Of a stretch of 17,122 nt of DNA, positions 857-17,122 are shown piece by piece (position 1 is the stretch's first letter; each line of letters begins with the position of its first letter). The DNA lies in the NCBI GenBank assembly GCA_027484885.1, contig JAIXSD010000462.1, positions 1 through 17,122 of the forward strand. The letters are read 5' to 3'. A model generated the notes under the pieces. It was given only the letters and a program-made list of their open reading frames with translations, did no database searches and was not told the DNA's origin. A program made the translations under genes and the position numbers. The stretch comes from Rubrivivax sp. GTDB lineage: Bacteria; Pseudomonadota; Gammaproteobacteria; Burkholderiales; Burkholderiaceae_C.

Positions 857-875
857 AACGGTCGAGGCCGAAGCC

Positions 876-1050: not shown

Positions 1051-1206
1051 ATCCGCTTTGGATCTGAATGCTTGAGCCCCCGAGAAAGCTGAGATTCAGA
1101 CCCTCCGGCGCCTCATCCCTACTCCCCCTAAAGTGGGCACACCCTGGCGGGATGGATGCTCTGCAAGCTATCGCGGATGCTTCTGCCATCGTTGGAGGAG
1201 AGCTGC

Positions 1207-1407: not shown

Positions 1408-1698
1408 GCCCGGTGTTGCAGTTCCAATCAACCGAGAACGTCCTGGCGAACTGCTGCTACGCAGCGGTTGCAGCCTCTCAGATGCCGAGCCTAGATGGCT
1501 GCTTTGTGCCCGGAGCAGACATTTGCTCCCGGCCTTTATCAGGCAGTTGATGAGCCCAAAGTTGTCATTCCTAGCGCCCGGTGCGTTACCCAACCGTAGT
1601 CGTTCAAAGCCAAATTGAACTGACGTCTCGCGGAAAGCACGAGACGCCCCCTGCTGAAAGGCCAACTAGGCTGACGGCTGTTACGAACTCGCGGCGAC
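1408..1698. other. Gene-free stretch with hairpins
   Basis: No credible gene is seen. It holds two inverted repeats: GGAGCA/TGCTCC around 1518-1535, and CGTCTCG/CGAGACG at 1624-1630 and 1640-1646. The second lies about 50 bp past the stop of the minus-strand gene at 1699 and could help end its transcript, but no T-tract follows. Confidence 0.4.
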
Positions 1699-2262: not shown

Positions 2263-2375
2263 TTAAAACCTAACCTTTAGGTGACTGGCAATACTCGGCG
2301 AAAAGTGCCGTCGAGCGGTCACGGTAGTATCGGCGGCGATTGACAGCCCTGGAGGTGAGCTTCCGCTTTGGGCAC

Positions 2376-2414
2376 ATTGCAGCCGCTCGACTGCCCGAGC
2401 CGAACGGCTGCAAT
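2376..2414. repeat. Long inverted repeat / hairpin
   Basis: Perfect 10-bp arms ATTGCAGCCG (2376-2385) and CGGCTGCAAT (2405-2414) enclose an inner CTCG/CGAG pair with a 6-base loop. The hairpin overlaps a short segment that recurs, diverged, at 14922-14949. Its role is unknown. Confidence 0.7.
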
Positions 2415-2712
2415 CAGCCTAATGCAGACCCTTCCCAGATTGCCGCGCAGTTTCCTTCCTCCACATGCGTTCAAGGCTATGGCGTATGTGGGCGTGCATA
2501 GTTTGACCTGTTTAGCTAACAGTTTCCCTAATGCGAAGGCATCTTCGTGAAAAGCGATGGCTTTGCTCTTGAAATCAGTTTTTTTGCGTCAGACGTAAGT
2601 TTCGCGCCCGAATCGACGTGGATTTCGGTCGATGGCGCATCAATCTGCATTGATCGGCGTGTGTGGGAACAGCGCGCCGCAGAAGAATGCTGAGCTCAGC
2701 GCTAGATTTTCT

Positions 2713-2757
2713 TGTTCAAGAAAAAAGTGCTGTTTTCAAGACTCTGTTCTTGAACAG
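2713..2757. repeat. Cluster of GTTCAAG-type inverted repeats (possible operator)
   Basis: TGTTCAAGAA at 2713-2722 is the exact inverse of TTCTTGAACA at 2747-2756. The right half is itself a palindrome, CTGTTC-TT-GAACAG (2744-2757), and a third partial copy TTTTCAAG lies between them. Clustered dyads upstream of the tns operon suggest a regulator-binding site. The CTGT-N6-ACAG spacing does not fit the E. coli LexA box, which has N8. Confidence 0.45.
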
Positions 2758-2829
2758 CTTGCGCTGCAGGCACTTGGTTGCGCATTTGAGCCGCGACAAA
2801 TAGAGTCCGCGCCACCTCGCGTCGGGGTA

Positions 2830-2886
2830 TGTCGCAAGCGCCGACTTGTTAACAGCAAATCTACAGGCGCAAGTCGTGCTGCGACA
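2830..2886. repeat. Nested inverted repeat / candidate structured RNA
   Basis: Outer arms TGTCGCA (2830-2836) and TGCGACA (2880-2886) and inner arms CGACTTG (2842-2848) and CAAGTCG (2870-2876) pair in register to make a 14-bp stem with a small internal loop and a 21-base end loop. It could be an RNA structure or a protein site. The inner stem recurs at 11028-11054. Confidence 0.5.
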
Positions 2887-3087
2887 GATCTACCGCTTTT
2901 CGCGACTTCCGCCGTGCTTGCTGAAAGCACAGCGAATTTCCTATGGGAATCAGATTCGGTAGGCGCGTCTTCTACGACCCGGAACGCTTAGTCCCACAGC
3001 ATTCAGCAACTAGCTTTGCTAATCAACTAACGCGCTATGCACTGACCAAGGTGCCGCGTAAATCAACCCATTGAAACGGAGAACACC

Positions 3088-3249
3088 ATGACGTAAGAAC
3101 GCCGATCACCCTTTCGAATGACCGGCGTCTGTTTGCCGGGAGATTACCCAACAGTTTGGCGACTCGAGTATCTCCCTGCAGCTGACGGTGGTCAAGCTCG
3201 CCCCTACGACTTTGCGCGTAGGGAACACCACCATCTCGCAAGGAGAGGT
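3088..3249 (+). promoter_or_regulatory. tnsA leader: two-codon ORF, alternative hairpins and a possible coupled upstream ORF
   Basis: A GGAG ribosome site (3078-3081) precedes ATG-ACG-TAA (3088-3096), a complete two-codon ORF. Right after it ACGCCG (3099-3104) can pair with CGGCGT (3123-3128), but the same bases are needed for CCGGC/GCCGG (3122-3139), so the two hairpins exclude each other. A third, long stem follows: GGTGGT/ACCACC (3187-3192, 3227-3232) around CCCTACG/CGTAGGG (3202-3208, 3217-3223). In the same stretch an open frame from after the TGA at 3119 ends in TGA at 3251-3253, overlapping the tnsA ATG as ATGA. The layout suggests translational control or attenuation of transposase expression; this is inference. 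Confidence 0.45.
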
Positions 3250-3927
3250 ATGAATACGCCTGTACGTCGGCTCATCAAGCCGACCACGCCTCGAACCGTC
3301 CACCTGCTGAACCTGAGAGGCGTCTTGCCTTCTTCGGTCCAGGCTGAGGCCACCACCGAAAGCGCCTTTGTACAAGTCGCGGCTTTGTGCCCAGCGACCC
3401 TCAAGGTCTCTTCTCAACCCGAGACCCTTCAACTACCTGGATGCAACTACACGCCCGACTACCGCGTCGAAACCATTGACGGTCGATTGGCGATCTGGGA
3501 AGTCAAGCTCGAGTCCAAGGTGCCAAAGCACCGATCGTTGTTCAATCTGGCCGCCCGACATCTGGCCGAGCGTGGGCAGCAGTTCTACGTCATCTCGGAA
3601 GAGTCACTCCGACGGCGCGACCAACACGAGACCGTGCGGCGCGTGCTGCGCTACGCCAAGGGGCACTTCGAGTCTGCTGACATTGCGCGGGTCACGCAGC
3701 ACCTGCTGGTGCACCCGCAGGGCGCATCGATACAGCGTCTGGCGACAGAGCTGATGGTTCCGCGAGAGCTGCTGTTTCACCTGGTCGCCACCCGCGTCAT
3801 CACCTTCGCAGGTGCCATCAGCGTTGCGCCGAACTGCCGCCTCATTCACACCCAATTTTTGGAGAACAACGATGCCGTTTACCTTGCACGCTGGCTTGGC
3901 GTTTCGCCGTGGCGCACGGACGTATGA
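3250..3927 (+). CDS. tnsA: Tn7-like transposition protein TnsA (endonuclease)
   Basis: TnsA is the restriction-enzyme-like nuclease that cuts the 5' ends of the element, so that with TnsB it leaves the donor by cut-and-paste. The product has 225 residues (Tn7 TnsA has 273). The nuclease core is visible: E37, then D70 in NYTPDYRVE, then E84 and K86 in IWEVKLES. These match the Glu, Asp and Gln-x-Lys active site of Tn7 TnsA, with Glu in place of Gln. The C-terminal half is helical and probably contacts TnsC. I chose the ATG at 3250 because AAGGAGAGG sits just upstream. A longer frame from 3118 has no ribosome site. It is the first gene of the operon and overlaps tnsB by 56 bp. Confidence 0.93.
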   Translation: MNTPVRRLIKPTTPRTVHLLNLRGVLPSSVQAEATTESAFVQVAALCPATLKVSSQPETLQLPGCNYTPDYRVETIDGRLAIWEVKLESKVPKHRSLFNLAARHLAERGQQFYVISEESLRRRDQHETVRRVLRYAKGHFESADIARVTQHLLVHPQGASIQRLATELMVPRELLFHLVATRVITFAGAISVAPNCRLIHTQFLENNDAVYLARWLGVSPWRTDV

Positions 3928-5854
3928 ACTGATCCGCGAGTTGCCAGATGGCATCCTGAGCTATGAGGACTTCCACACCCGGCATCCGCGAACGATATCC
4001 AAGGCGAAATTCATCAAGTCCGTTTGGGACGGTGACATCGTCCTGATGGGGCATGACAGCGCACCCGCGCCCAAGGACGATAAGACGGCCTCGCCGCGCC
4101 TTGTGGCCTATGACAACCTCAAGGGTGCCAAGCTGGAGCGTTTCAAGCAAAGGATGGTCTACATCACGGCGATTCGTCAGGCGCATCTCAGTCGCGGGAT
4201 GCGTCGCCCCATCGAAGCCTTGATCAAGAAAGTGGCTCAGCGAAATAGAGACGCAAATGCACCGTCGGGCAGCACCGTGATGAGATGGCTGAGAACGTAT
4301 GAGAAGTCACAGCACGCGCCGCAGTCCTTGGTCGATGGCCGCTCGCACAGGGTCCTCACCAAGAAGCTGAATCCGACGATGGACCGGCTCGTGATCGACT
4401 CGCTGCGCAAGTACTACCTGACCCGAGATCGGTTTTCGCTGCGCCATACCCTCGCGATGATTCATGCACAGGCAAAACCTCTTGTTGCTGAAGGTAAGTT
4501 GGCAGAGGCGGAATCTCGAATCAGCCTGAGTACGCTCTCGCGACGGGTCGCTGCAATGGATCAGCATCGTGTCATTGAGGCACGGGAAGGCACGGCACGG
4601 GCTCGGATGGTGACGCGCACCGCGATGGATGGCACTGTGGCCCGGTATCCATTGGATGTCGTCGAAGTGGACCACACGCCATTGAACTGGGTCGTGATCT
4701 GCGATCGAACGGGCTTGCCGCTCGGGCGCCCGATGCTGACGGTGATGATTGATGCCTACTCGGGCTATGTGCTCGGGTTTTACGTTAGCTTTTACGGCGC
4801 GGGCCTGAGCAGTGTGAGTGGGGTGGTGAGGTGTGCGCTGAGTTTCAAAGCGGACATGGTCGCTGGGATCAAGCTGGAGAACGACTGGATCTCTGAGGGT
4901 ATCCCGGACACCCTCAAGCTGGATAACGGGCTGGAGTTCCACTCACCAGTATTCCAGCGCATGGGAAGGGAGTTGGGCAGCAGCTTCACGTATTGCCGAG
5001 TCCGTACTCCATGGCTGAAGCCTCATGTTGAACGCTTCTTTGCATCACTTGACCACCTGACCCTGGCGCGTGGCCGAGTGCACAAGCGTGTGGCCAATGT
5101 CATCAACATGGACCCCAACAAGGACGCCGCCATCATGTTCACGGCATTCGTCCGTGGACTGTTGATGTACGTAGTCGATTTCCATCCGTTCCAGATCAAT
5201 GAGCGCAAGCTGGCGCGGCCCTATGACCTGATGAAAGATGGGTTGCTCAGCGTGCCGCCTGCGCGATTTCCTCACAACATGGAGCGATTGCGCATGGTGT
5301 CGGCACTGTCCAAACAGTTGACCGTTCATCAAGGCGGAGTAGATCTCCATGGCTTGCCGTTCGGTGGCGCGGAGTTGCTGCCTTTGCGTCAAGCGCACGG
5401 CAAGACCTTCAAGGCCTGGGTGAAGTGGGATCCAGACGACCTGTCGCACATCTGGGTGGAGGATCCGGTCAGTCATCTGTGGGTGGCCAGTCCATGCCGA
5501 TGGGGAAGGTACGCGAATGGGCTGAGTTGGAAGCAGCACTTGGTGATTCGCCAGTTTGCACGCCAGGAACTCAAAAGCAATGGCGCTTATGAAAACCTGG
5601 AACGAGCACGCCTTCTGCTGCATGACCACTGGCAGGAGTCCGTGAGCTGGAAAACAAAAGCGGATCAAAAGCTCGCGGCCCGTTTCAGCGGAGCCACATC
5701 TGCCCGAGTTTTTGGCTCATCCCTTTCCTCTCAGCCGAGCGAAGAGGCGCCTCCATCGGCATCAAGCTCAGCCCCGATTGAGCCGGTCTGCAAGCAAGAA
5801 GTCCCTGCGTACTCGTTTATCGACGACGACAACTATCAAGCCATTGATCTTTGA
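3872..5854 (+). CDS. tnsB: Tn7-like transposase TnsB (DDE recombinase)
   Basis: TnsB binds the end repeats and carries out 3'-end cutting and strand transfer. The 660-residue product (Tn7 TnsB has 702) has N-terminal helix-turn-helix DNA-binding regions (about 1-245) and an RNase H-fold rve core. The triad is D267 (VVEVDHTP), D351 (KLDNGLEFHS) and E387 (KPHVERFFAS), a DD(35)E spacing. A beta-barrel region follows. The acidic, Ser/Pro-rich tail (last ~45 residues, ending DDDNYQAIDL) is like the TnsC-binding tails of this family. The ATG at 3872 has GGAGA 7 bases upstream; the in-frame ATG at 3812 lacks one and would overlap tnsA more. All key residues are present, so it looks functional. Confidence 0.95.
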   Translation: MPFTLHAGLAFRRGARTYELIRELPDGILSYEDFHTRHPRTISKAKFIKSVWDGDIVLMGHDSAPAPKDDKTASPRLVAYDNLKGAKLERFKQRMVYITAIRQAHLSRGMRRPIEALIKKVAQRNRDANAPSGSTVMRWLRTYEKSQHAPQSLVDGRSHRVLTKKLNPTMDRLVIDSLRKYYLTRDRFSLRHTLAMIHAQAKPLVAEGKLAEAESRISLSTLSRRVAAMDQHRVIEAREGTARARMVTRTAMDGTVARYPLDVVEVDHTPLNWVVICDRTGLPLGRPMLTVMIDAYSGYVLGFYVSFYGAGLSSVSGVVRCALSFKADMVAGIKLENDWISEGIPDTLKLDNGLEFHSPVFQRMGRELGSSFTYCRVRTPWLKPHVERFFASLDHLTLARGRVHKRVANVINMDPNKDAAIMFTAFVRGLLMYVVDFHPFQINERKLARPYDLMKDGLLSVPPARFPHNMERLRMVSALSKQLTVHQGGVDLHGLPFGGAELLPLRQAHGKTFKAWVKWDPDDLSHIWVEDPVSHLWVASPCRWGRYANGLSWKQHLVIRQFARQELKSNGAYENLERARLLLHDHWQESVSWKTKADQKLAARFSGATSARVFGSSLSSQPSEEAPPSASSSAPIEPVCKQEVPAYSFIDDDNYQAIDL

Positions 5855-5859
5855 ATAAC

Positions 5860-6819
5860 ATGAACAATTTCGACATCATTGATACCGGAGACGCTGACGA
5901 AGAGGAGGCTCGGCAGGTCGCTGAGCGCCGCATGTTCATGTACTCGCCTGCTGCAATCCTCGCATCCGATGAGGTGGCCAGGAAGTATGTGCTGTTCGCT
6001 GACTTGCATATGGTTCTGGCCGCCTTTGACCGAGCCTACCAGCTGGCGTTGCGCCCCAACTGCCCACAAGGCATTGTGGTGTCAGGCCCGCCGGGCACAT
6101 CCAAGACCAGCGTCTCCGAGTACTTTCGCAAAAGCCTTCCGACAGCCACTGACATCGTCGAGGGCTATGGGGCGCTCAGCATACGGCTTCGATCGAATCC
6201 ATGCGCAGGCAGCATCGTGTCGCTCTTGCTGCGGGCGGTGCACCACCCCTTCACGGCTGTCAGAAGGGGGCGCTTTGACAGCATGCGCGACATTGCTTTC
6301 GAGGCGCTTGAGCAGCAGCGCACACGCATCATCTTCATTGACCAGGCGCATGTGCTCGAGCAGTCTGTCCGCAAATCCAAAGCCCCGAAAGCGACTGAGA
6401 CGACGGCCTCGGAGGTACTGCGCGATCTGATGGACGAAACCGGCATCGCACTGATCTTCCTCGCCAGCAACAGCTTTGGTGGTTTGGAGAATGTGGACGA
6501 GTCTTTGGCGGACCGCGTGTCTGTTCGACTGAGTCTGAGGCACTTTGACGACGATGAGCCTTGGGCCAAGTTCTTGGGGGAGATCGGAAGGCACACGCGC
6601 TGCATCGACTTTTCAATTCTTGCCGAAAAGGAAATGGCCAAGCGCACGCACAAGGCTGTTCTGGGCAACCGTCGGCGAGTGAAGCTGTTGCTGACGGAGG
6701 CGGTGCTGGTCGCCTTTGATGCGAAAGCGCAGGCCGTCGATCTCAGTCACTTTCAGATTGCCTTTCAGCGCATCAGCGGTTCGTCCAGCCAAGTGGTGAA
6801 TCCTTATGCCTCCGCGTGA
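5860..6819 (+). CDS. tnsC: Tn7-like AAA+ regulator TnsC (TniB-like size)
   Basis: TnsC is the ATPase that forms filaments or rings on target DNA and links the target selector (TniQ) to the TnsAB transposase. The product has 319 residues, nearer to TniB and CAST TnsC (~300-330) than to Tn7 TnsC (555). Walker A is SGPPGTSKTS (residues 75-84). Walker B is RIIFIDQAH, with D161 followed by Gln162 where Glu is usual. Sensor 1 is LIFLASN (198-204), and ESLADRVSVRL (214-224) is the arginine-rich lid-side region. I used the ATG at 5860; a TTG at 5851 overlapping the tnsB stop is a possible alternative. The end overlaps tniQ-1 by 14 bp. Confidence 0.93.
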   Translation: MNNFDIIDTGDADEEEARQVAERRMFMYSPAAILASDEVARKYVLFADLHMVLAAFDRAYQLALRPNCPQGIVVSGPPGTSKTSVSEYFRKSLPTATDIVEGYGALSIRLRSNPCAGSIVSLLLRAVHHPFTAVRRGRFDSMRDIAFEALEQQRTRIIFIDQAHVLEQSVRKSKAPKATETTASEVLRDLMDETGIALIFLASNSFGGLENVDESLADRVSVRLSLRHFDDDEPWAKFLGEIGRHTRCIDFSILAEKEMAKRTHKAVLGNRRRVKLLLTEAVLVAFDAKAQAVDLSHFQIAFQRISGSSSQVVNPYASA

Positions 6820-7774
6820 GCAGAGCCGGCTGGGGATTGTTGTGCCGCCGATGCCGGAGGAGTCGACCATGAGTTGGCTCCTTCGTGCATTTCAGGCCAA
6901 TGGCATCCAGTACGAGGAGGGTATGCGTTGGCTGGGGCTGGATCGGCGTACCGGGCTTAGCGACAGCGACGTCGTGAAGGTGGCGTGGGCGCTGCATGCA
7001 GACGCTGACGAGGTGCGTGGCCGGATGACCTTGCTTGAAAGCAGAACCGGTGGACGTTGGGTGCACCTGGCTGGCCATCGCCTATGTCGCTGGGTAGCCC
7101 CGACGACCATGATGGCAAAGCTGTGTCCGCTCTGTCTTCGTGAAGCCGGCTTCGCTCGCATCGACTGGCTCACGAGGGCAGTGCCCGCATGTCGGCGGCA
7201 CAGTTGCAGCTTGGTGCAGGCATGCGCTTCCTGTGGCCGAAAAATCCATTGGGCCAGACCTGGCCTGCGCATCTGTCGCTGTGGGCGCTTCTTCAAACCG
7301 TTTGAAGTGGGCGGCTCTCTCGAGCCCGAGCTGGTTGCCTGGTTGGAGTGGGTCGAGGCAGTTCTACTCGGTGACGCGGGCGTAGCCAGAAGCGCCTCCC
7401 TCCGGCTGCCGCCGCTGCTTCAGGATATGACCGTGGATGGTGCCTATCGCATGGTGGAAGCATTCGGCCTGCTCGAGCGCCCAGGTGCGCCGGTGCGCGC
7501 TGTGCGGCACAGCTCAGTGAGTCTGTCAGCAGTCGGTGCCATGCTCACACGCGGTTTGCGACGTCTTTCTGAGGTCGGCCGCGCGGAAGGTATGGCGCTG
7601 CAGGCGTTCGAAGATGTCCACTTCCCGGTACTCACTGAACTGGCTGAGGAGCCTGCTGCTGATGTTGATGGCCGCCGCGCGGCCTGGTTGCTGGATTGCT
7701 ATCGCGCGATGCGGCCATCAGGGATGCGCCGTGTTGGCTCGCGTCCGCGCCGTCAGATGCCATTGTTTCTATGA
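6806..7774 (+). CDS. tniQ: TniQ-family target selector, first copy
   Basis: TniQ/TnsD proteins recognise the target, directly or through a partner, and recruit TnsC. The 322-residue product begins with the family signature (VVPPMPEESTMSWLLRAF, residues 12-29). It then has zinc-finger cysteines: CPLC at 107-110, C129-x2-H132-x-C134, CASC at 140-143 and CRC at 157-159. The C-terminal part (about 170-322) is helical. It is longer than CRISPR-associated TniQ cores only modestly, and much shorter than Tn7 TnsD (508). The ATG at 6806 overlaps tnsC; ATGs further in would cut the signature. Its stop overlaps tniQ-2 (ATGA), so the two are likely made together. Confidence 0.9.
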   Translation: MPPREQSRLGIVVPPMPEESTMSWLLRAFQANGIQYEEGMRWLGLDRRTGLSDSDVVKVAWALHADADEVRGRMTLLESRTGGRWVHLAGHRLCRWVAPTTMMAKLCPLCLREAGFARIDWLTRAVPACRRHSCSLVQACASCGRKIHWARPGLRICRCGRFFKPFEVGGSLEPELVAWLEWVEAVLLGDAGVARSASLRLPPLLQDMTVDGAYRMVEAFGLLERPGAPVRAVRHSSVSLSAVGAMLTRGLRRLSEVGRAEGMALQAFEDVHFPVLTELAEEPAADVDGRRAAWLLDCYRAMRPSGMRRVGSRPRRQMPLFL

Positions 7775-8580
7775 GTGCCGATCAAGCCGCTTCGTTGAAG
7801 TATGGCGTGCCGCAGCCCTTCCAGTTTGAAGCGCCCAGCGCGTGGTTGACAAGACTGGCCTGTGCACAAGGCGTCGGCGAGCTCGACGAGCTGATGCACT
7901 TCCTTGGCCTTCCTACTCAGGGGGATTTGGACTGGCATCTCCAAGGCGAGGCGCTGGACGGTCTGCGGCAGCGTTGCCACCTGCCGCCCAGCAGCTTTGC
8001 GGTCTCCAGTCGATTGATGGAAGGTGTGGCTCTATCGGGCATGGGACCGCACAAGCTTCTGCTGTCGGGCGAGGACGGCAAGGCACGGTTCCGGTTCTGT
8101 CCTTGCTGCCTTGCAGAGCGCAGACTTCCCTACCTCGACATTCACTGGCGGTTCGCGTGTTGGCGTTGGTGCCCGATCCATGACACCGTCTTGCAAGACG
8201 CTTGCCCGGATTGCGAAGCGCTTGTTCAACATCCTTGTCTGATCGAGTCGACGCGCGCTGGTCGAGCAGGACATGCGTCTCTGAGTCGCTGCATTTTCTG
8301 CAGTGGTCGCCTGGCAGGCCTGCCAGTGCAACAGCTTGCGCGCGAATGCCTGCAATCACTGGGCAGGGTTGAGCGGCTTTGGCTGAAAAATGGGCAGGCG
8401 ACAGTGGCCGCGCTTTACAAGCAGTACTTCAAGCTGCGCGGCAAGTGGCACATCATTCAGGGCCTGGGCGGCGAGTATGGGTTGCTCGTGGGCTTTGGCA
8501 GTCGGCGTATCGACCGGAAGCTCAAGGCTTGGCGTTTGACGCGACAGTTCCTTGCGGAAGATTCCCATCCTGCCAACTGA
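7771..8580 (+). CDS. TniQ-family protein, second copy
   Basis: This 269-residue protein repeats the TniQ layout: an N-terminal PFQFEAPSAWLTRLA signature (residues 16-30), then zinc-finger pairs at C110/C113, C134-P-I-H137, CPDC at 145-148 and CIFC at 174-177, and a basic C-terminal region (KLRGKWHIIQG, then RRIDRKLKAWRLTRQ). The ATG at 7771 overlaps the stop of the first tniQ as ATGA. A longer frame from 7696 would run deep into tniQ-1. The two proteins differ strongly, so this is not a recent duplication. The pair may form a heteromeric target reader, or each may serve a different target path, as TnsD and TnsE do in Tn7. Which one binds DNA is unknown. Confidence 0.87.
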   Translation: MSADQAASLKYGVPQPFQFEAPSAWLTRLACAQGVGELDELMHFLGLPTQGDLDWHLQGEALDGLRQRCHLPPSSFAVSSRLMEGVALSGMGPHKLLLSGEDGKARFRFCPCCLAERRLPYLDIHWRFACWRWCPIHDTVLQDACPDCEALVQHPCLIESTRAGRAGHASLSRCIFCSGRLAGLPVQQLARECLQSLGRVERLWLKNGQATVAALYKQYFKLRGKWHIIQGLGGEYGLLVGFGSRRIDRKLKAWRLTRQFLAEDSHPAN

Positions 8581-8789
8581 GGCGAGCCTGAGGCCGTGTT
8601 GCAGCTTGGACAGCATTGGACCTTGATTGCCCTATCAGTTCGAGCGCCTGACTCTTGGGGCCCGGTGGATAGGGCCTTCAGGTCAGGGCATGCCCCCCTT
8701 ACACGTCCCTCACTTCTTTCGAGACGCCACTTTTAGGCGCCACCAGATAGGCCCAAAATCAGTCGCCCATCTGTTCCCTGGAGAGCATC

Positions 8790-9035
8790 ATGAAGCAATC
8801 ACACGTGCAAATCATTGAAACCGTGGAGGCAGCGCAGCCCGTCATTGAGTGCCTAATCGAACGCCTTTCGACGGCACGATGCATTCATGATCTTGGTGAT
8901 CTTTCTGTAATCCAAACGACGATCAGAACGATTGAACAACTTCTCGACGTAGCTGCGGAGTACGAGGTTGCATTGCGACGTCAGCTGGCACGCACGAATG
9001 TCCGGCTCTCGACTTCGCGGACTGAGTCACATTGA
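8790..9035 (+). CDS. Small hypothetical protein (81 aa)
   Basis: I do not recognise this protein. The ATG at 8790 has a clear ribosome site (GGAGAG, 6 bases upstream). The product is almost all helical in look (heptad-like hydrophobics from residue 7 to 70), with no signal peptide, membrane segment or cysteine pattern. It has a basic tail. It opens the cargo after a 209-bp gap from tniQ-2, and 126 bp separate it from the next gene. It could be a cytosolic regulator or antitoxin-like partner of the cargo, but nothing in the sequence shows which. Confidence 0.6.
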   Translation: MKQSHVQIIETVEAAQPVIECLIERLSTARCIHDLGDLSVIQTTIRTIEQLLDVAAEYEVALRRQLARTNVRLSTSRTESH

Positions 9036-9161
9036 TCAGTTTGAATCGCCCCGTGACGATTCATTGGCAGGTTGGAGGGGCACGCAGCGTTACATCCTCA
9101 CACTTGTGGAAGCGAGGTCAAGCACCCGAATGCGAGCATGCGGAAAGGGGGGGAGCTAGTA

Positions 9162-9920
9162 GTGACACATCTGACTCTTGCATTCAATTGCGCGACACGA
9201 TCTTGCCTGCGCATCGTTGGGGTTGCCTTCATTCTTTTCGTTCCGCTCATTGCCCTGAGTTCTGCCGAGGCAACAAACTGGTGCCAGGAAGCGGAACGAA
9301 GCCTCACCGACAAAGCGGGAAAGTCCATCAGTTGCAGTTCCGAAGCGAAACGATGCGTTCGCATGAACAACTACTGGTGTCAGAAGCACAGCTCGAGCCC
9401 CTGGAAGGGCACCCCCAAATCCGATGGGAAAGATGGCAATAGCGACGTAGACGGGCATGCGATCTTTGAGTCGGTAGAGTGGTCGGCAAGGGCAATTGCG
9501 GTGGACCTCCGCGCAAAGTACAAGCGAGGGCTTGTTACAGCGGTCGACATTGCTAGCGCTCATTCTCCATGGTGCGACACACTCGGATCAAAGGCCGTGG
9601 TCAATGGGCGCGGCCGTACATGCCTCGACGGTCGCGCGAACCCTCCAGTGGGATTTAGTGGCCCCTTCTGCGAGAAACCAAAGGCCCCGAACCCCAGTCA
9701 AGACGAATGCGCTGTCGGTTGCAATTGCCCGCCAAGCATCGCAAAGGTGCTTACTGGAGGGCTGAATCTTGGCATCCATGATGACCTAAAACTCTTCGAT
9801 GCCGCAGGCCGGCCCCAACCCAATCTCGTTGCCGTAATCAGAAATCTGGCGCTCCAAGAACAAGGGATCTATGTCAAGTCGAGCGTCATCAAAGACGGAA
9901 TTGCCGGGCTTTCGCATTGA
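9162..9920 (+). CDS. Secreted cysteine-rich protein, possibly peptidoglycan-active
   Basis: The product has 252 residues from a GTG start at 9162, chosen because a G-rich ribosome site (GGGGGGGAG) lies 6-7 bases upstream and a signal peptide then begins the protein. The signal peptide has a hydrophobic core at about 16-32 and likely cleavage after AEA (residue 37). The mature part holds about ten cysteines, suggesting disulfides in the periplasm. The segment GHAIFESVEWSARAIAVDL, followed by KRGLVTAVDIASAHSP, loosely resembles phage P5-like and other peptidoglycan-related proteins. That match is by eye and weak. The C-terminus is a defined helical block (LVAVIRNLALQEQGIY). It is followed by two genes with spanin-like features, which supports an envelope role. 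Confidence 0.7.
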   Translation: MTHLTLAFNCATRSCLRIVGVAFILFVPLIALSSAEATNWCQEAERSLTDKAGKSISCSSEAKRCVRMNNYWCQKHSSSPWKGTPKSDGKDGNSDVDGHAIFESVEWSARAIAVDLRAKYKRGLVTAVDIASAHSPWCDTLGSKAVVNGRGRTCLDGRANPPVGFSGPFCEKPKAPNPSQDECAVGCNCPPSIAKVLTGGLNLGIHDDLKLFDAAGRPQPNLVAVIRNLALQEQGIYVKSSVIKDGIAGLSH

Positions 9921-10028
9921 TGCTTCACCGGTTGTACGAGGTGTCCTGGCAATTGGCGTTGCACCGGCCAGCTCTAGAGCCAGGGGGACGCCTTCTGGAA
10001 TTCAACCGACACAGGAGATCTTGAATCC

Positions 10029-10544
10029 ATGCTACCGCTCAACGGATTTCTGACTAGGTTGATGCCTGGTGCGCTTGCCGTGTTGCTGCTTGGCGGGGTC
10101 GGCTACTACGCGGGCCTCAAGGCAAAACAAAGTGAAGTCGACAAACTGCAGGCGCGACTCTACGAATACAAAAGCCTGGGTGGCCAAATGATGGAGATCA
10201 AGACCGCTATCGAAAAGGACATGAGAGACAAGAATCAAGCCCTTGTCGATGCCTACAAGGTAGAAATTGGGACCATCCGCACCGAATTCGACACGGCACG
10301 TAGAGGCCTAGAGTCTGCCACCGGTGACCTGAAGAGAGGGGGGAAGGACGTAACCGCCTCGACCGGATCACTCGTAGCAGCCATCAAGAATTTGCCGCCG
10401 GGCGCAGAAAGAGACGAAAAGATTTTCAAATTCATTGAACTCATGACCGACCCGCAAAAGCGGCAGCAGCTTTGCGCAGTCACTCGGGTCGCCGATAGTC
10501 AAGTGCAGAGTCTCAAGAGTGGCTTCACGATAGGTGCCCCATGA
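10029..10544 (+). CDS. Membrane-anchored coiled-coil protein (inner-spanin-like)
   Basis: The 171-residue product has one N-terminal membrane segment (about 8-30, MPGALAVLLLGGVGYYAGL). A long charged helix with coiled-coil pattern follows (about 31-105), then a short domain (NLPPGAERDEKIFKFIELM). With a short cytosolic end and the rest in the periplasm, this is the topology of phage i-spanins (Rz), but no sequence family is recognised. The AGGAG before the ATG at 10029 is about 11 bases away. The stop overlaps the start of the lipoprotein gene (ATGA at 10541-10544), which is the arrangement expected for an Rz/Rz1-type pair. Other single-pass coiled-coil proteins would look similar. Confidence 0.75.
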   Translation: MLPLNGFLTRLMPGALAVLLLGGVGYYAGLKAKQSEVDKLQARLYEYKSLGGQMMEIKTAIEKDMRDKNQALVDAYKVEIGTIRTEFDTARRGLESATGDLKRGGKDVTASTGSLVAAIKNLPPGAERDEKIFKFIELMTDPQKRQQLCAVTRVADSQVQSLKSGFTIGAP

Positions 10545-10894
10545 ACACATTTCGAGTCGCTTTGACTTCCGCTCTTGTGCTGTGCTCTTCCGGCTGCTGT
10601 CATACAGTGATCATCCGTCCCGCTAGCGCGCCTAACTGCGAAATTCCTGCTGAATTTCTGAACGCGTGCATTGAGAAAGCGAAGCCGGGTGACGCGCTAA
10701 CCTACGGCGATCTACCGGATCTTGTTCTAAGTACGCGTAAAGACTTTGTCGAGTGCCGGAAAACTTACCAAGAGATCACGAAGTCGTACAGCACATGTGT
10801 TGCAGGCCTATCGAAGTACAACAAGAGTCTGAAGACTCTTGAGGATCAGATGAAGGGCAAGTACAAGGACGCGACCATCGTCCAACAGGACTAA
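10541..10894 (+). CDS. Rz1-like lipoprotein (outer-spanin-like)
   Basis: The 117-residue product has a lipoprotein signal peptide with lipidation at Cys19 (LCSSGC). The mature part starts with IIRPASAPNCEIPAEFLNAC. It continues with TYGDLPDLVLSTRKDFVECR, and ends in a Lys-rich helix. The order Pro-rich start, P-x-E-x-L-x-x-C, then T-x-G-D-L and a helix with a spaced Cys is what Rz1-like outer spanin subunits of many phages of GC-rich hosts show. It would sit at the outer membrane and pair with the product of the upstream gene, whose stop it overlaps. It is longer than typical Rz1 (60-100). The Rz1 reading is a pattern match, not a proven homology. Confidence 0.75.
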   Translation: MNTFRVALTSALVLCSSGCCHTVIIRPASAPNCEIPAEFLNACIEKAKPGDALTYGDLPDLVLSTRKDFVECRKTYQEITKSYSTCVAGLSKYNKSLKTLEDQMKGKYKDATIVQQD

Positions 10895-11883
10895 GCACCT
10901 TCATCGCTGCATTGGATGTCTACAAGCCAGCTGTTAAAAATGGACCTACCGCAGTGAACGCAGACTGTTTCCTTGTGGCCAGAGGATTGACATACATCGC
11001 CAGTCTCAGCGAGCCCGGACCAGATTGCCGACTTGATCGATATCGACAAGTCGGTGCGGCTGTTGCCGAGCTTGCCGAACAGCAGGATCGGCTAGAAATG
11101 GGCCGAGCTCTCCAATTCAATCGCCGCGAGGGTCTATCCATGCGCCTGCTGCCGTTCCGATTTGGCTGACCAGCACCTCATCTGGCGCGGCCGAGTTCGA
11201 CCGTGCGAGCCCGAAATTCGGATATGCCAACGTGGATCGCCTGGCCGGCGATCCCGAGTCGCCACTTGCAGCCTGCACCAAGCGCGCCTCAGTCACCCGA
11301 TGTGCACATGCACCGGCGGTTTCAAACTAGATGCGCCAAACGCAAGTTCACTTTGAAACCGTATCGGTCGGATAAGCGCATGTACGAAGCCAAACCCGGA
11401 CGAAGGCCCACACGGGACGCCGTTTAAGTCTTTTCTCAAAAGTGGCGTGAGGAGAAAACAACCTACCGCTGGCGGCGGTCGTGCGCAGAATGCCGACCAA
11501 GTTCGAGGTCGGCCAAATGGCTGGGGCCGAGGCCAGCCGAACAAGCGCTCCCGGTCATCAGCGGTTCTACAGGTCGCGGCCTCATTTTGGGCAACGACAC
11601 GCCTTCGAACGACGGCTACCTGGCGAGCTACTCAGGCCTCCCGCCGGCTCGACTCGGTCATTTCTCGACGGTCGCGGAGCGCTAAGAAAGCTTGTCTGCA
11701 AGCACCCGCTAGGGACAGCTTCTCGGCGATCGATCGACAGTCAGGCTGACCTCACAAGCACAGCCGACGTCGCGACCTTCAGTCGTCATCATCTTGAAGG
11801 ATGGAGAGATTGCGGACACCTGATACAAACCGCACTCGAATTCGGGGTCAGTAACAATCAGAACGCTTCTTCGGGGGGGGGCG
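10895..11883. other. Gene-free, hairpin-rich stretch between two cargo clusters
   Basis: Nearly 1 kb has no gene I can support. A frame at 10912-11169 has no ribosome site, and one at 11481-12023 runs into the lipoprotein gene at 11884. Perfect inverted repeats occur at 11028-11054 (CCGACTTG/CAAGTCGG), 11492-11513 (GCCGACC/GGTCGGC) and 11519-11538 (GGCTGG/CCAGCC). The last two are only five bases apart. Some short frames look protein-like (for example around 11180-11290), so it may be decayed coding DNA. It may also contain the promoter of the caspase cluster. Confidence 0.5.
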
Positions 11884-12477
11884 ATGAACCAAAGTCAGCG
11901 TGGACGCCTTCTTGCCCTTTGCTTTGCCGGAGCACTGTCCGCGGGTTGCTCGACGGTCGAGCGACGCGCAGATGCAATCGTCGGTACACCGTTCCAGAAC
12001 GGTGGGCTGTCGACGAAGAGTAGAGAACTTCTGCAGACAGTTGAGGCTATGAAGGGGACGGCGCCCCAGAAGGTTGTCCAGGACGCCAAGAGCCAACTAG
12101 CGTTGGATTTCTCCTCCGTGGTCGCTCAGTGCAAGGACTCTCTGGATTCCAATGACTCAAAGCTTCAGAGATCGAACAATTGGGCGCTTGGAGCATCAAT
12201 AGTCGGCTTAATAGCAGGGATAGGTGGCTCGGCATTATCTGCCCAAGCATCCGTGTCCAAATCGACTATCGCGGCCCTTAGCGGAATCGCCGGCGGGACG
12301 AATTCTCTGCAGAATCAGCTCAAGCAAAGTGGTTACGACCCGGTGGAGTACGCAAAGCGCTCTACCACTATTCGGGAAGCCATACTTGCAAAAACAAAGG
12401 AGTTCCAAGAGGGTGACTTGGAACGCCAACAAGCCGCAATGCGGGATCTTGTCGCGACGTGCGTGGCTTATTCATGA
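11884..12477 (+). CDS. Lipoprotein with an internal membrane-like segment
   Basis: The 197-residue product has a lipoprotein signal peptide with lipidation at Cys22 (ALSAGC). Residues 23-100 are soluble and helical. Residues 101-123 (ALGASIVGLIAGIGGSALSA and on) are glycine-rich and hydrophobic, like a membrane helix or a membrane-inserting segment. The rest is helical and ends in LVATCVAYS. A run of nine G (11873-11881) serves as the ribosome site two bases before the ATG, so its length may affect expression. It stands first in a cluster with the caspase and the cysteine hydrolase, so a membrane partner, substrate or inhibitor of one of them is a fair guess. I recognise no family. Confidence 0.8.
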   Translation: MNQSQRGRLLALCFAGALSAGCSTVERRADAIVGTPFQNGGLSTKSRELLQTVEAMKGTAPQKVVQDAKSQLALDFSSVVAQCKDSLDSNDSKLQRSNNWALGASIVGLIAGIGGSALSAQASVSKSTIAALSGIAGGTNSLQNQLKQSGYDPVEYAKRSTTIREAILAKTKEFQEGDLERQQAAMRDLVATCVAYS

Positions 12478-12496
12478 CAACCAGCAGGTTCCGCCC

Positions 12497-13777
12497 TTGA
12501 AAACGCGGCTCATCTTCAAATTCCTGTTAGGCGGTCTTCTTTTCATCCTTTATGGGATGACCTGGGCACAGGAGGTGGACCAAAAGACGATTTACCGCTT
12601 TGCACTGGTCGTTGGCAACAAGGCATATACCGGGAAGCCATGGCGGCCACTAAAGGCTCCAGTAAAGGATGCCAAGGATCTAAGCGACGTACTGCGCAAT
12701 GCTGGATTCCAGATTGATAGCGATTCATACATCGAAAACGGTACAGGACGAGACCTTAGGGCGGCTATAGATGGCTTTGGTACCAAAGTCAGGCAGAAGC
12801 GCAGAGACATTCTTCGAAGAAATGCGCAGGATTCCGAAGGCATAGTCGTTGTTGTCTTCTTCTCAGGGCACGGCTTCATGGTCGACGAAGCGGCGTACCT
12901 CGCTGGCGTCGACGCAAACGGCAAGTATGTCGAGGAGATCATGCAGCAGAGTGTGAAATTGAATCGACTGGTGCAAGACCTTACACCAGATGAGCGTGAT
13001 GTCGATCTCTTGTCTATTCTGCTCATCGATGCCTGTCGGTCCCAGGCTAATATGCCAAGCAAATCCGGGGGGGCCGCGAAGAGCATGCTGGCAAACTCGA
13101 CAAATCCGTTTCGGCAGATATCAGGGTTTGGTCGGATATCCGTATTTGCTACAACGGATGGGAAGGTGTCATTCGACGGACGGAACGAAGGGGAAAACAG
13201 CGTCTTTACGGCAGCACTACTTGAGGCCGCTCAAAAACCTTCCTCACCAAAAAACTTTTCGGACTTTGTGGAGCGAGTGGGTATGCTTACCCCAAAAATC
13301 GCAAAGCAGCGCTTTTCAATCGAACAATATCCAGAAATCTATAAGACTGGGGCAGCCTACGACTTCTATTGGAGCCAAGGACAAGCGAAGGACGTCCAGA
13401 ATAATGTTCTTGCCCTAAACAGTGCCAAAGGCGCCAATGACGCTGGAACGAGTCGCCTAGGATGGATATGGATAGGGGACTATTCGAAGAATGGTACAGG
13501 CATTTGGGATGTGTCTCGCTTTGCAGTCACAGACTCACAAGGTCTTCCGGCACCGAGCGAACTACGAGTAGGCCAAGAAATTCAGATTCGGGCAAATCTC
13601 AACGTTCGGGATAAATTTCCGATCCGCGATAGCAACTGCACGAAGAAATACCAAGAGTGTGCTGCATTACTCGGGACGATTCCAAAGGGTCTAAAGGTCG
13701 AGATCGCGGAGGGTCCGCGAGCGTTTGGCCAACAGAATTGGGTGAAAGTAAAATTCAATGCCAAGGCAATATACTAA
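12497..13777 (+). CDS. Secreted caspase-fold peptidase (family C14) with C-terminal SH3b-like region
   Basis: The 426-residue product has a signal peptide (residues 1-24, likely cleavage at TWA-Q) and a caspase-fold domain (about 33-290). Its strand-turn start is RFALVVGNKAY. The catalytic His125 lies in VVFFSGHG and Cys180 in LLIDACRSQ, both intact. After a linker, residues 367-421 (LNVRD, then GTIPKGLKVEI and WVKVKF) resemble an SH3b domain, which often binds cell wall. Bacterial caspase-like proteases cut after basic or acidic residues and often trigger cell death, but most act in the cytosol; this one is predicted to be exported. I chose TTG at 12497, as it starts the signal peptide and lies 19 bp past the lipoprotein stop. 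A seven-G run at codons 190-192 lies just past Cys180. Confidence 0.88.
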   Translation: MKTRLIFKFLLGGLLFILYGMTWAQEVDQKTIYRFALVVGNKAYTGKPWRPLKAPVKDAKDLSDVLRNAGFQIDSDSYIENGTGRDLRAAIDGFGTKVRQKRRDILRRNAQDSEGIVVVVFFSGHGFMVDEAAYLAGVDANGKYVEEIMQQSVKLNRLVQDLTPDERDVDLLSILLIDACRSQANMPSKSGGAAKSMLANSTNPFRQISGFGRISVFATTDGKVSFDGRNEGENSVFTAALLEAAQKPSSPKNFSDFVERVGMLTPKIAKQRFSIEQYPEIYKTGAAYDFYWSQGQAKDVQNNVLALNSAKGANDAGTSRLGWIWIGDYSKNGTGIWDVSRFAVTDSQGLPAPSELRVGQEIQIRANLNVRDKFPIRDSNCTKKYQECAALLGTIPKGLKVEIAEGPRAFGQQNWVKVKFNAKAIY

Positions 13778-14630
13778 GGTCCGCTTGATTAGCCAATACA
13801 TCGGAATCGCGGCAATGGCGATGACTTGCCTTCAAGCACGAGCCACAGAGGAAGGACTATTTAACGCGTACATTTTGAAGGCGGTTGAGGATCTGGCGCT
13901 ATCGAGAGCTGGTCTTGGCTATGGACCAGCAGCTTATACGCGAGATCTCCGACTCGCGGGACGTATTGTTAAAGCCAGCAGACCACCACTGACAATGTGT
14001 GTCGCCGCGCAGGTGGAAGTGATTGCGAAAGCTTTGGAAATCTACGAGTCCGATACCAAGGATAGGTCATATCGTTCCTTCGTTCCTCTCACTCAGTGGA
14101 AATCTCTTCGACCGCACTCGCTGAGAGGCAAAATCTGGATCGTTGAGAAGTCTGGCTCATCTGGAACTGCCAGCGCGCTTGAGACGTTCGGAATGGGTGA
14201 ACAGATGCCTTTCGAAGCGCTCAAACCTGGCGCCTTCTTGAACCTCAACCGCGAACGTACTGGGCATGCCGTGATCTTCTTGAGCTACTTGGATAGCTCC
14301 GGGGAGCCAATGCAACAATACAGCGACAAGGTGGCTGGATTTAAGTACTTCTCCTCGCAAGGCTCGCCTGAGAACGGAGGCTTTGGCTACCGATATGCCT
14401 TTTTCTCAGACGCGGGCTGCCCAAAGTTGGCTGAGGGCAAGAAGAGGGACTGCGGAGTTATTCGGTCATCGAACCAGCGCTTTCTAAATACCGGGCACAT
14501 GCTGGCGCCGAAACATTGGAACAGCAAGCGAAGAGACCAAGCTCTTGCTGTGTTCAATGCGACCAAGAGCATTGGTGGCGAGGGCGCTTTCGATCCGATG
14601 TACTTTGACGGCAAGACAACAGACGACTGA
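13758..14630 (+). CDS. Secreted cysteine hydrolase, NlpC/P60- or CHAP-like
   Basis: The 290-residue product has a basic start and a signal peptide (to about residue 29, QARA). Cys81 in PPLTMCVAAQVEVIAKAL begins a helix, and His170 in LKPGAFLNLNRERTGHAVIFL sits in a strand. This Cys-helix then G-x-F/H strand order is that of papain-like NlpC/P60 and CHAP hydrolases, which usually cut peptidoglycan peptides or amides. FKYFSSQGS with a following GYRYAFF fits the later strands of such proteins. The start overlaps the caspase gene by 20 bp, so the two are probably made together and may work in the same compartment. Homology is by motif only; the substrate could be protein rather than cell wall. 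Confidence 0.75.
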   Translation: MPRQYTKVRLISQYIGIAAMAMTCLQARATEEGLFNAYILKAVEDLALSRAGLGYGPAAYTRDLRLAGRIVKASRPPLTMCVAAQVEVIAKALEIYESDTKDRSYRSFVPLTQWKSLRPHSLRGKIWIVEKSGSSGTASALETFGMGEQMPFEALKPGAFLNLNRERTGHAVIFLSYLDSSGEPMQQYSDKVAGFKYFSSQGSPENGGFGYRYAFFSDAGCPKLAEGKKRDCGVIRSSNQRFLNTGHMLAPKHWNSKRRDQALAVFNATKSIGGEGAFDPMYFDGKTTDD

Positions 14631-15155
14631 GTCCTGGCTTCGCCAGCTCGACATCTGGTGGGACTTGCTCCAACCGGCAAGGTGACGGCAGCAGACGATG
14701 GATCTGCCGGTGTCGGCACGTCTGGCCTGACGCCAGCCACGCTTTCGTCCTCTCTGCCTCTCTGGCGAACGCAGAGCTTCAGCAGTGGGAAACGTCTGGC
14801 AGAGATTGCCCACTCAGAATTCAGGAGAGCCAAAAAAATCCGGTGGCCGGGAGCTGCGGCTTCGTGTACGAGAATAGGGGGGGAACTGATGTTCAGTCGT
14901 GCGGCAGCTTCCGGCAACCGCGAGCTTCAGCAATGGGCACATTGCCGCCATACGGACTACTGCCGCGACCGCCAGCAACCGCTGCTGAGTTGCCGCTCGC
15001 TCAGCGAGCATAAACAACTGGACCAGGCCAGCAGTTTGATCCCAAGCCTGCGCTGCAAATCTGCCCATCGAAGACGTCGAGTGGCCTTCTGAACGTATCG
15101 CGCGTGATGCATGGCCAGTCTGGCTCTACGATTGGCGGCTAATCTGCAGATCGCA
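14631..15155. other. Gene-poor stretch with repeats
   Basis: About 525 bp separate the hydrolase from the last cargo gene. It holds a diverged copy (14922-14949) of a segment also found at 2357-2384, and a 7-bp palindrome GCTCGCT-C-AGCGAGC at 14995-15009. One small frame (14889-15092) is listed separately. Apart from these I see nothing. Confidence 0.45.
14889..15092 (+). CDS. Doubtful small ORF (67 aa)
   Basis: A seven-G run (14877-14883) lies five bases before the ATG, the same type of start as the lipoprotein gene at 11884. The product (MFSRAAASGNRELQQWAHC and on) is rich in Arg, His, Gln and Cys, and overlaps the repeat at 14922-14949. The composition suggests a chance frame. Only the ribosome site speaks for it. 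Confidence 0.15.
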   Translation: MFSRAAASGNRELQQWAHCRHTDYCRDRQQPLLSCRSLSEHKQLDQASSLIPSLRCKSAHRRRRVAF

Positions 15156-16229
15156 ATGAACACGCCAGCAATCACTGTCGAGGCACTTCCTGCGGGCTAC
15201 GGCGACTGCCTCCTGATCTCCTGCCCGGTCGGTGCGCGCACCTGGCGGCTTCTCATTGACACCGGGCCAGACGAGTGCCTCCCCGCCCTGGTGGAACGCT
15301 TGAAGGCGATTCCCCTGAACGCGCAGGGCCGCCGCCGGATTGACCTTGCGGTCATCAGCCACATGGACCACGACCACATAGGCGGTGCAGCTAGGCTTTT
15401 TGCCGATACATCGCTGAAGCTGGAGTTTGGAGACGTCTGGTTCAACGCGCCAAATCGACCGGTGGCCCGGGGCGTCCGGGAAGGTATCGGCCTCGCGGCT
15501 GTTCTCGGGGCTGACGCGCGAGGTTTGCCATGGAATCTGGCTTATGGTGGTCAAGATGTGGTGACCGGCCCAGATCTGTTCGGTGAGGTGCCACGCAAGC
15601 GGGGGGAGCCACGGATCACTCTCCTGTCGCCGACCCGCTTGACGTTGGATGAGCTCTACCGGGTGTGGGCGAAAGAGCTGCCGAAGGTGAAGGTGCCGCC
15701 CGACCCGGCGCCCCTTGCAACGACAAGAAGCGCGCTGGACGTCGAGGCGCTTGCCCGCTCTGTGACGCCTGAAGATCGTGCGCCGGCCAACGGGTCCAGC
15801 ATCGCGTTCTTGCTCGAACATAGAGGAGCAACGGCACTTCTAACCGCCGACGCATTTCCGTCCGTCCTTCAGCGCGCCCTGGCCGCGCTTGCAGCTAGCA
15901 GACGGGAGACGCTGCCCTGGACGCTTGACTTCATGAAACTCAGCCACCACGGCAGCCAAGCGAACACCACAAACACACTGCTTGATACGATACGGGCTCC
16001 CCGCGTCCTAGTGAGCACGAGCGGCGCAATCTTCGGCCACCCAGATCAGGTAGGCATCGCCCGCGTTATCGCCAGAGGCCCGCAGGGAAGTGAAATCTGG
16101 TTTAACTTCAAGACAACTCGGACCGAAGTCTGGGCTCCTGAATCGATCCAAGCGCGGTATGGCTATGTTGCGCGGTTTCCGGCTGCAGCGGGATCCATCA
16201 CCACGATCCACTTGCCAGCAAAGGTGTAG
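15156..16229 (+). CDS. Metallo-beta-lactamase-fold hydrolase, ComEC-like
   Basis: The 357-residue product carries the metal-binding motif VISHMDHDHIGG (H69, D71, D73, H74), later a core strand ALLTADAFPS and the LSHHGSQANT motif. This set (H-x-D-x-D-H with HHGS) is that of the MBL domain of ComEC/Rec2 and its stand-alone relatives, which are nucleases or phosphodiesterases when tested. There is no signal peptide or membrane region, so it acts in the cytosol, unlike the rest of the cargo. The ATG at 15156 begins the first strand (ITVEALPAGYGDCLLIS); a start at 15111 is possible, and neither has a strong ribosome site. MBL proteins of this type recur in conflict systems, sometimes with caspases or trypsins. 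A link to the caspase cluster 525 bp upstream is inference. Confidence 0.9.
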   Translation: MNTPAITVEALPAGYGDCLLISCPVGARTWRLLIDTGPDECLPALVERLKAIPLNAQGRRRIDLAVISHMDHDHIGGAARLFADTSLKLEFGDVWFNAPNRPVARGVREGIGLAAVLGADARGLPWNLAYGGQDVVTGPDLFGEVPRKRGEPRITLLSPTRLTLDELYRVWAKELPKVKVPPDPAPLATTRSALDVEALARSVTPEDRAPANGSSIAFLLEHRGATALLTADAFPSVLQRALAALAASRRETLPWTLDFMKLSHHGSQANTTNTLLDTIRAPRVLVSTSGAIFGHPDQVGIARVIARGPQGSEIWFNFKTTRTEVWAPESIQARYGYVARFPAAAGSITTIHLPAKV

Positions 16230-16286
16230 GGTGAAGGATGTCCATCTGGCCCTAGTTTGCGCCATCAAGGCGCCCGGGCGAGCAGC

Positions 16287-16329
16287 CCCGAGAGCCTGCT
16301 TAACAGGGATCGCGCTGTCGGGACTTTTT
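16287..16329 (+). terminator. Possible terminator after the MBL gene
   Basis: CCCGA (16287-16291) pairs with TCGGG (16318-16322), enclosing CCTG/CAGG, and five T follow at 16325-16329. The stem is imperfect, and it lies 58 bp past the stop of the last cargo gene, where a terminator is expected. Confidence 0.3.
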
Positions 16330-16418
16330 CGATCAGATCTCTGTCTGTTTTGAGATCTTCAGCACATCATTTACCTCGACGCCGCGGTAGCGCACGGAAG
16401 ACTGCTGCCCATTTGACA

Positions 16419-16472
16419 CCCGACATTAACGCAGCCAATTCTTGTGCCGGTCAGTGACTGCTCAATGTCGGG
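16419..16472. repeat. Inverted repeat CCCGACATT/AATGTCGGG
   Basis: Perfect 9-bp arms at 16419-16427 and 16464-16472 are separated by 36 bases. It lies next to the hairpin at 16497-16530. Its role is unknown. Confidence 0.6.
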
Positions 16473-16496
16473 CACCGTGAGTCGAGCCCTCGTCCG

Positions 16497-16530
16497 CCAA
16501 TTACCGCAGACGCTGCGTAGCGGTAATTGG
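16497..16530. repeat. Perfect 11-bp inverted repeat with 12-base loop
   Basis: CCAATTACCGC (16497-16507) and GCGGTAATTGG (16520-16530) are exact inverses, and the flanking ACCGTG/CACGGT can extend the pairing. No T-tract follows. It could be a protein site near the right end, an RNA hairpin, or the remnant of another small element. Confidence 0.7.
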
Positions 16531-16701
16531 TGCACGGTTACGACCAGCAGCCCAGTCGATGCAAACAGGCCTTTGGTCAATGCTGGCCGGCTCTCGCAAT
16601 CGCGCTCGGGCGGCAGAACTGGCTTTTCGCTCGCAGCTTGCGCGCGGTCTAGCGGGCTGCGGCCATGATGAGCCTCATCCTGTCGGCCACGCTCAAGCGA
16701 A

Positions 16702-16836
16702 AATTCAAACTTCAACGAGACAAAAAGCCGCGAATTCAAACTTCAGTGAGACACGGGTTCAGACCTCGATGGGACAAAAATCGCTAAGTATCGGATTTGA
16801 TGGAAGCCGCAGTTCAACCTTCAGCGCAAACCGACA
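16702..16836 (-). repeat. Right transposon end: terminal repeat and spaced TnsB-binding repeats
   Basis: Read inward from 16836, the terminal copy is TGTCGGTTTGCGCTGAA followed by GGTTGAAC (16812-16836). Three more repeats in the same orientation lie at about 16757-16779, 16733-16753 and 16702-16724, spaced out as in Tn7 L. The inner three share GTCTC or GTCCC followed by TGAAGTTTGAAT and differ from the terminal type. Confidence 0.85.
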
Positions 16837-17117: not shown

Positions 17118-17122
17118 CCCAA

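Follow-up and report, generated by a model that had tools for sequence, protein, structure and literature searches.

An apparently exported caspase beside a predicted NlpC/P60-type hydrolase in the cargo of a Tn7-like element of Rubrivivax sp.

We analyzed a stretch of 17,122 nucleotides from Rubrivivax sp. (GenBank assembly GCA_027484885.1, contig JAIXSD010000462.1, positions 1 to 17,122; here "the window"), which is contig 169 of an assembly of 4.06 Mb in 779 contigs with 76% completeness. It holds a Tn7-like element whose cargo includes three adjacent genes, for a lipoprotein, a caspase and a papain-like hydrolase (Table 1). The inverted repeats at the ends of the element (985 to 1013 and 16808 to 16836) are 83% complementary, and the target duplication TCGGC flanks both ends, at 980 to 984 and at 16837 to 16841. 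TniB and two TniQ matches exceed the Pfam cut-offs, and matches to rve, Mu-transpos_C and TnsA (TnsA and TnsB domains) lie below them. Transposase genes, inverted ends and the 5-bp duplication together identify the element as Tn7-like, in agreement with the cargo setting proposed in an earlier reading of the DNA from its letters alone (the original prediction). That reading also placed the three open reading frames and the 19-bp gap between the lipoprotein and caspase genes correctly. Its 20-bp overlap of the caspase and hydrolase genes holds for the ATG at 13758 but turns into a 7-bp gap if the hydrolase starts at the TTG at 13785, which lies behind AAGG. A promoter scan upstream of the three-gene cluster found nothing.

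Table 1. Features of the window and of four other loci at which a caspase gene adjoins a hydrolase gene
Feature	Position	Strand	Remarks
Tn7-like element, window	985..16836	.	Inverted ends TGTCGG...CCGACA and 5-bp target duplication; lipoprotein, caspase and hydrolase genes are cargo
Spanin-like pair, window	10029..10894	+	10029-10544 membrane anchored, 10541-10894 lipoprotein-like, overlapping; upstream of the caspase operon
Lipoprotein, window	11884..12477	+	Cys22; Gly/Ala-rich hydrophobic segment; passes a simple signal test; alignment A3; subthreshold matches
Caspase (Peptidase_C14), predicted to be exported, window	12497..13777	+	TTG start; signal peptide; His125/Cys180; D178-A-C180; C-terminal part with conserved Cys381/Cys388
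Papain-like hydrolase, NlpC/P60 type by predicted fold, window	13758..14630	+	Cys81/His170; C terminus TTDD; start may be TTG 13785; export signal weak
Variovorax pair (L002)	Caspase 5682-7001, hydrolase from 6998		Caspase first; 4-bp overlap
Pseudorhodoferax soli pair (L004)	Hydrolase to 7855, WD40-caspase 7864-11526		Caspase second; 8-bp gap
Rhizobium sp. ASV8 pair (L059)	Hydrolase open reading frame to 7963, caspase from 7966		Caspase 79.6% identical (tblastn with Rhizobium caspase)
Rhizobium lusitanum plasmid pair (L081)	Hydrolase to 8906, caspase open reading frame from 8908		Caspase second; 1-bp gap by longest open reading frame

The caspase matches the Peptidase_C14 profile with an E value of 9.3e-23 (81.5 bits versus a cut-off of 21.4), and its model adopts a caspase fold over the residues compared (24 to 291 only). 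His125 and Cys180 are invariant in alignments of 12 and 19 rows (window included), which bears out the intact dyad of the original prediction. The motif Asp178-x-Cys180, which we take to be of metacaspase/paracaspase type, predicts cleavage after Arg or Lys. The C-terminal tail, outside the fold comparison, has no Pfam match at E ≤ 1 and displays SH3b-type motifs by eye. A hydrophobic N terminus is found in the window caspase and in all seven close relatives, and the start at 12497 is supported because one relative, P0125 (93% identical), begins at the same residue. The caspase occurs in one of 18 genomes of the genus, and its subfamily (E ≤ 1e-40) in one of 399 genomes of the order, in both cases the window's own.

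The neighboring hydrolase belongs to a family in which Cys81 is present in 199 of 200 aligned rows and His170 in all 200 (window included; four rows repeat others), the sole gap at Cys81 being a fragment (L070). Its predicted fold, with the catalytic Cys at the start of a helix and the His on a strand, is that of the NlpC/P60 (C40) peptidases and resembles the endopeptidases MepS/Spr and RipA, from which the family differs by the lack of detectable sequence similarity and by a conserved tail. This tail, TTDD (window 14616 to 14627), is retained across phyla (Thr287 in 181 and Asp289 in 184 of 200 rows) and is modeled with low confidence. A Foldseek comparison of the hydrolase model with the PDB returned nothing at E ≤ 0.001, and a second look with the model (VIA) returned NlpC/P60-type entries, the best structural match being MepS from its complex with NlpI. 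The 17 entries that VIA ranks above Tse1 are all peptidases or lysins of peptidoglycan, judged from titles or general background; the titles of three read just "bacterial peptidase." At the sequence level, 25 family members gave no match to Pfam NLPC_P60 or CHAP at E ≤ 1, the hydrolase profile found two chance matches only in the PDB (E values of 0.12 and 0.19), and HHalign of the family profile with a CHAP protein of the Pseudorhodoferax locus gave no useful match. The original assignment as NlpC/P60- or CHAP-like is supported for NlpC/P60 by predicted fold. The hydrolase is encoded in two of 399 genomes at the family level, the window's own and G376, with a hydrolase that looks like the one of P. 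soli; one plasmid record carries it, and no hydrolase relative is among 30 pattern matches in viral contigs.

The structural ranking also bears on whether the hydrolase might be an interbacterial weapon, released against other cells, with the lipoprotein as its immunity protein and the caspase maturing the toxin. Tse1 ranks well below MepS, a Pfam scan finds no delivery domain on the window hydrolase, and the lipoproteins of loci L006 and L007 have no established kinship with that of the window, so that we regard such a role as distinctly unlikely.

In addition to the window, a caspase adjoins the hydrolase at three (L002, L004 and L059) of the 79 GTDB loci that encode the latter, and on a plasmid of R. 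lusitanum, where the annotated caspase start at 9169 would cut into the caspase domain. Among alpha-, beta- and gammaproteobacterial hydrolase loci the proportion is three of ten (L002 to L007, L059, L060, L072 and L077, with four loci titled only "Proteobacteria" left out). The partner caspases are divergent: that of the window is 37.8% identical to the Variovorax caspase and 25.3% identical over 198 residues to the R. lusitanum caspase, and it matches that of P. soli over 25 residues only. The caspases of all four other loci carry a Sec-like signal by a lenient test. Since our remade caspase profile included sequences from L002, L004 and L081, detection at these loci with it is circular; independent of it are Pfam Peptidase_C14 matches in the L002 and L081 genes and the tblastn match at L059. 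For the L004 gene, the 25 of 53 families listed are propellers, and the Peptidase_C14 match G413:C3:21711-22439 was taken to be this caspase gene. Three further pairs may be present in metagenomes, where linkage rests on an equal length of the longest contig: P0128 with P0008 (27914), P0129 with P0003 (5198) and P0130 with P0007 (15746), all drawn from the seven close caspase relatives.

The genomes of the Variovorax, P. soli and Rhizobium sp. ASV8 loci, of about 8 Mb each, encode five, three and three caspases, respectively, and by our own estimate a chance adjacency would arise at about 1 in 1000 per genome. That the genes are chance neighbors in cargo-rich mobile DNA would accord with a hydrolase family mostly without a caspase neighbor and with the abundance of caspases in the window's bacterial family, where 64 of 120 genomes have a Peptidase_C14 match; yet the pairs are closely spaced in three lineages other than that of the window, the caspases there differ and both gene orders occur, which makes this highly improbable. 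Because caspase and hydrolase adjoin in several lineages, with divergent caspases, differing gene order, Sec-like signals and the metagenome pairs, the pattern reads as a functional link between the two. Their co-occurrence outside the element, in the independent lineages of Variovorax, Pseudorhodoferax and Rhizobium, supports the original prediction; the check that it had set, whether all three genes stay together, comes out for this pair but not for the lipoprotein, nor, within the flanks covered, at the majority of hydrolase loci. The known caspase pairs are scattered over several places of a tree built from 46 hydrolases, and a single origin of the pairing was not supported (six label changes on the 46 rows, at least five of them forced, with 37 of 500 shuffles as low), although rows without readable context were scored as unlinked and the tree gives no true count of gains. 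Within open-licence literature, we recognized no paper describing the three-gene unit.

Some of these loci display further features around the pair. At the P. soli locus, the region 7864 to 12873 comprises a 1220-aa WD40-repeat caspase directly after the hydrolase, followed by an eCIS_core-domain protein with the motif HELKH. Exported HExxH proteins are found near the hydrolase at L003, L004 and L007. At the ten proteobacterial loci, 4 of the 48 genes up to four places away from the hydrolase are of this kind, against 0 of 46 farther away and 3 of 502 at other hydrolase loci; the numbers are small and based on the motif only. Near the R. lusitanum pair, a caspase shares one frame with an annotated GH25 lysozyme (L081, 12723 to 14807, minus strand), adjoined by a second annotated GH25 gene, and a caspase-GH25 frame similar by eye is present at L059 (11590 to 13809, minus strand).

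The original prediction had set its exported caspase against prokaryotic caspases that act mostly in the cytosol. This background is contradicted by 35 caspase-bearing frames from 30 control loci of the window's bacterial family (L090 to L119, chosen for the best Pfam scores and not a random sample), 26 of which carry Sec-like signals by a lenient test that scores every possible start, keeps the best one and is thereby biased toward a positive outcome; several of the nine remaining frames have twin-arginine-like starts by eye. Likely extracellular caspases were also suggested in the available part of a 2012 survey by Asplund-Samuelsson (PMC3501461). From sequence features of this kind, exported caspases look common in the family, which is probably Burkholderiaceae, as it includes G376. 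The 56 frames beside the control caspases include one wall peptidase (M23), four with sigma-70 region 2, and no NlpC/P60, CHAP or amidase match among the 25 of 28 families listed. In this control, with one M23 in 56 neighbor frames among the families listed, caspases do not generally adjoin wall hydrolases. Because the control caspases are often exported and seldom beside wall hydrolases, the speciality of the window caspase is its hydrolase partner and not its export.

We tentatively favor, at less than even confidence, a periplasmic module in which a protease controls a wall hydrolase, proteolytic control being the simplest reading because an exported Asp-x-Cys protease adjoins a wall hydrolase. 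The hydrolase would be exported as well, and the caspase would process it in the periplasm, cutting after Arg or Lys. The lipoprotein may anchor or present the caspase or the hydrolase at a membrane. An envelope trigger would then switch on the caspase, hydrolase activity would be released, and the sacculus would be damaged. The reverse, a caspase that holds the hydrolase down, has almost the same likelihood; we lean toward activation, since the cuts of caspases are limited and not processive, and since caspases are joined to wall hydrolases elsewhere, as in the GH25 and Amidase_2 fusions.

Two observations weigh against such a module. One is that 76 of the 79 GTDB hydrolase loci have no caspase within the flank, which reached up to 7 kb and often less; by recorded taxon, 36 of these 76 are Elusimicrobia and 18 are Myxococcota or Deltaproteobacteria. 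The other is the weak export signal of the window hydrolase, which has no hydrophobic segment and a hydropathy of 1.67 versus a threshold of 1.7. The signal is clearer in relatives, 81 of the 120 listed passing at 1.7, 70 at 1.9 and 85 at 1.4. The export signals claimed for all three proteins are hence upheld for the lipoprotein and the caspase and weak for the hydrolase in the window copy.

A comparable division of labor, with a lipoprotein that delivers cross-link hydrolases to a protease of the periplasm, is known from NlpI-Prc-MepS in Escherichia coli (PMC11211486) and LbcA-CtpA, acting on four wall hydrolases, in Pseudomonas aeruginosa (PMC6050968), as far as the available parts of these papers extend. 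Both combine a lipoprotein, a periplasmic protease and a peptidoglycan hydrolase, and the parallel with the window is one of roles, not of homology; unlike in these systems, the window protease is a caspase and the genes form one cluster on a mobile element. On this model, the lipoprotein would be the adaptor for a caspase that degrades or trims the wall hydrolase; cells would not die, and the module would tune the host wall or aid the element. The matching roles of the lipoprotein, the periplasmic protease and the NlpC/P60-fold hydrolase, as well as the best structural match to MepS from the NlpI complex, speak for such housekeeping restraint. However, the window lipoprotein and protease have no Pfam match to an NlpI-type adaptor or a PDZ tail-specific protease and are not assigned to the NlpI-Prc-MepS type, limited cuts are not processive degradation, and most hydrolase hosts have no caspase in reach; we consider it possible but doubtful.

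The lipoprotein passes the signal test, its Cys22 is invariant in the five rows of alignment A3 (the window sequence counted twice, as itself and as one copy), and it has one hydrophobic Gly/Ala-rich segment at about residues 101 to 119, as expected of the proposed lipoprotein with a membrane-like segment. The window lipobox, LSAGC with Ser at position -3, does not match the strict lipobox pattern used; relatives have LAGC (P0122 and P0124) or LLGC (P0123). Its role as a constant partner could not be sustained, since the window sequence accounts for two of the five rows in A3 and the only further relative is a weak match at the P. soli locus (32.3 bits, on the opposite strand and adjoining a CHAP/peptidoglycan-binding protein). 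No related lipoprotein was found at L002, L059 or L081, and judged from its distribution the lipoprotein reads as accessory, not core. Alternatively, the caspase would cut the lipoprotein, whose hydrophobic segment would enter a membrane much as pore formers released by proteases do, but from the periplasm, with the hydrolase as a separate helper. Matches to the two-helix membrane families CyanoTRADDas_TM (E = 0.006) and SLATT_4 (E = 0.03) point in this direction, as does an equal length of the longest contig (3421) for the metagenome caspase P0131 and lipoprotein P0124. Nevertheless, those matches fall below the curated cut-offs, and with no relative of the lipoprotein found at the three outside loci searched we find this quite improbable.

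Known caspase systems resemble the window in part. The available part of PMC3501461 describes caspase-Amidase_2 fusions, in which a caspase is likewise coupled with a hydrolase of peptidoglycan and is probably extracytoplasmic; those four sequences are single fused proteins whose hydrolase part belongs to a different family, whereas in the window the genes are separate. As in the two-gene EACC1-caspase membrane conflict system (PMC7159879, as far as the available part goes), a small membrane-associated protein is encoded 5' of the caspase gene, but NCBIfam NF047832 scores 41.3 bits versus a cut-off of 140, the lipoprotein has no EACC1 match, and the window caspase is apparently exported. The MALT1 paracaspase aligns over the caspase part only (residues 29 to 290), the window protein being bacterial and, by its predicted signal, exported. 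In PADLOC-DB, the caspase matches one generic caspase model only (32.5 bits) and neither the lipoprotein nor the hydrolase matches a system gene; the search recognized no known anti-phage system.

Other cargo genes surround the cluster. The spanin-like pair matches PHROG Rz-like spanins (PHROG 1327, E = 0.004; PHROG 456, E = 9e-6) and, below cut-off, LysC (E = 1.9e-4); a phage-spanin-like pair is odd as Tn7-like cargo, and its link with the caspase operon is unproven. The gene at 9072 to 9920 encodes a Cys-rich, probably secreted protein without Pfam match. Two plasmids, one from Cupriavidus and one from Roseibium, carry relatives (37% and 39%, respectively) close to genes for an integrase or recombinase; tblastn of the stretches around these two plasmid relatives found no caspase or hydrolase, and we rejected the secreted protein as a member of the module. 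At the right end of the cargo, the gene at 15111 to 16229 encodes a metallo-beta-lactamase-fold protein related to LmuA and Avs1a, which stands alone, no partner gene being seen up to the element end at 16836. An anti-phage defense role, suggested by the mobile setting and this neighboring gene, is a guess.

Our verdict is that the original observation, an apparently exported caspase beside a predicted wall hydrolase of a family as yet without a name, in a mobile gene cluster, is borne out in large part, and that its interpretation is supported in part, with the roles in defense and cell death being conjecture. In its most far-reaching form, which we hold to be rather unlikely, the proposal would be that a mobile two-gene core of an exchangeable exported caspase and an NlpC/P60-like hydrolase, with lipoprotein or exported peptidases as accessories, runs caspase-triggered periplasmic wall lysis. 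We know of no substrates of exported caspases. A conserved candidate substrate alongside the caspase in unrelated genomes would open the question of periplasmic caspase targets to a direct test that needs just two or three small proteins. Release of the hydrolase by the caspase, if it occurs, would amount to caspase-driven bacterial lysis without cytosolic sensors, and the two-gene core, if real, would be a programmed-death or anti-invader system wholly outside the cytoplasm.
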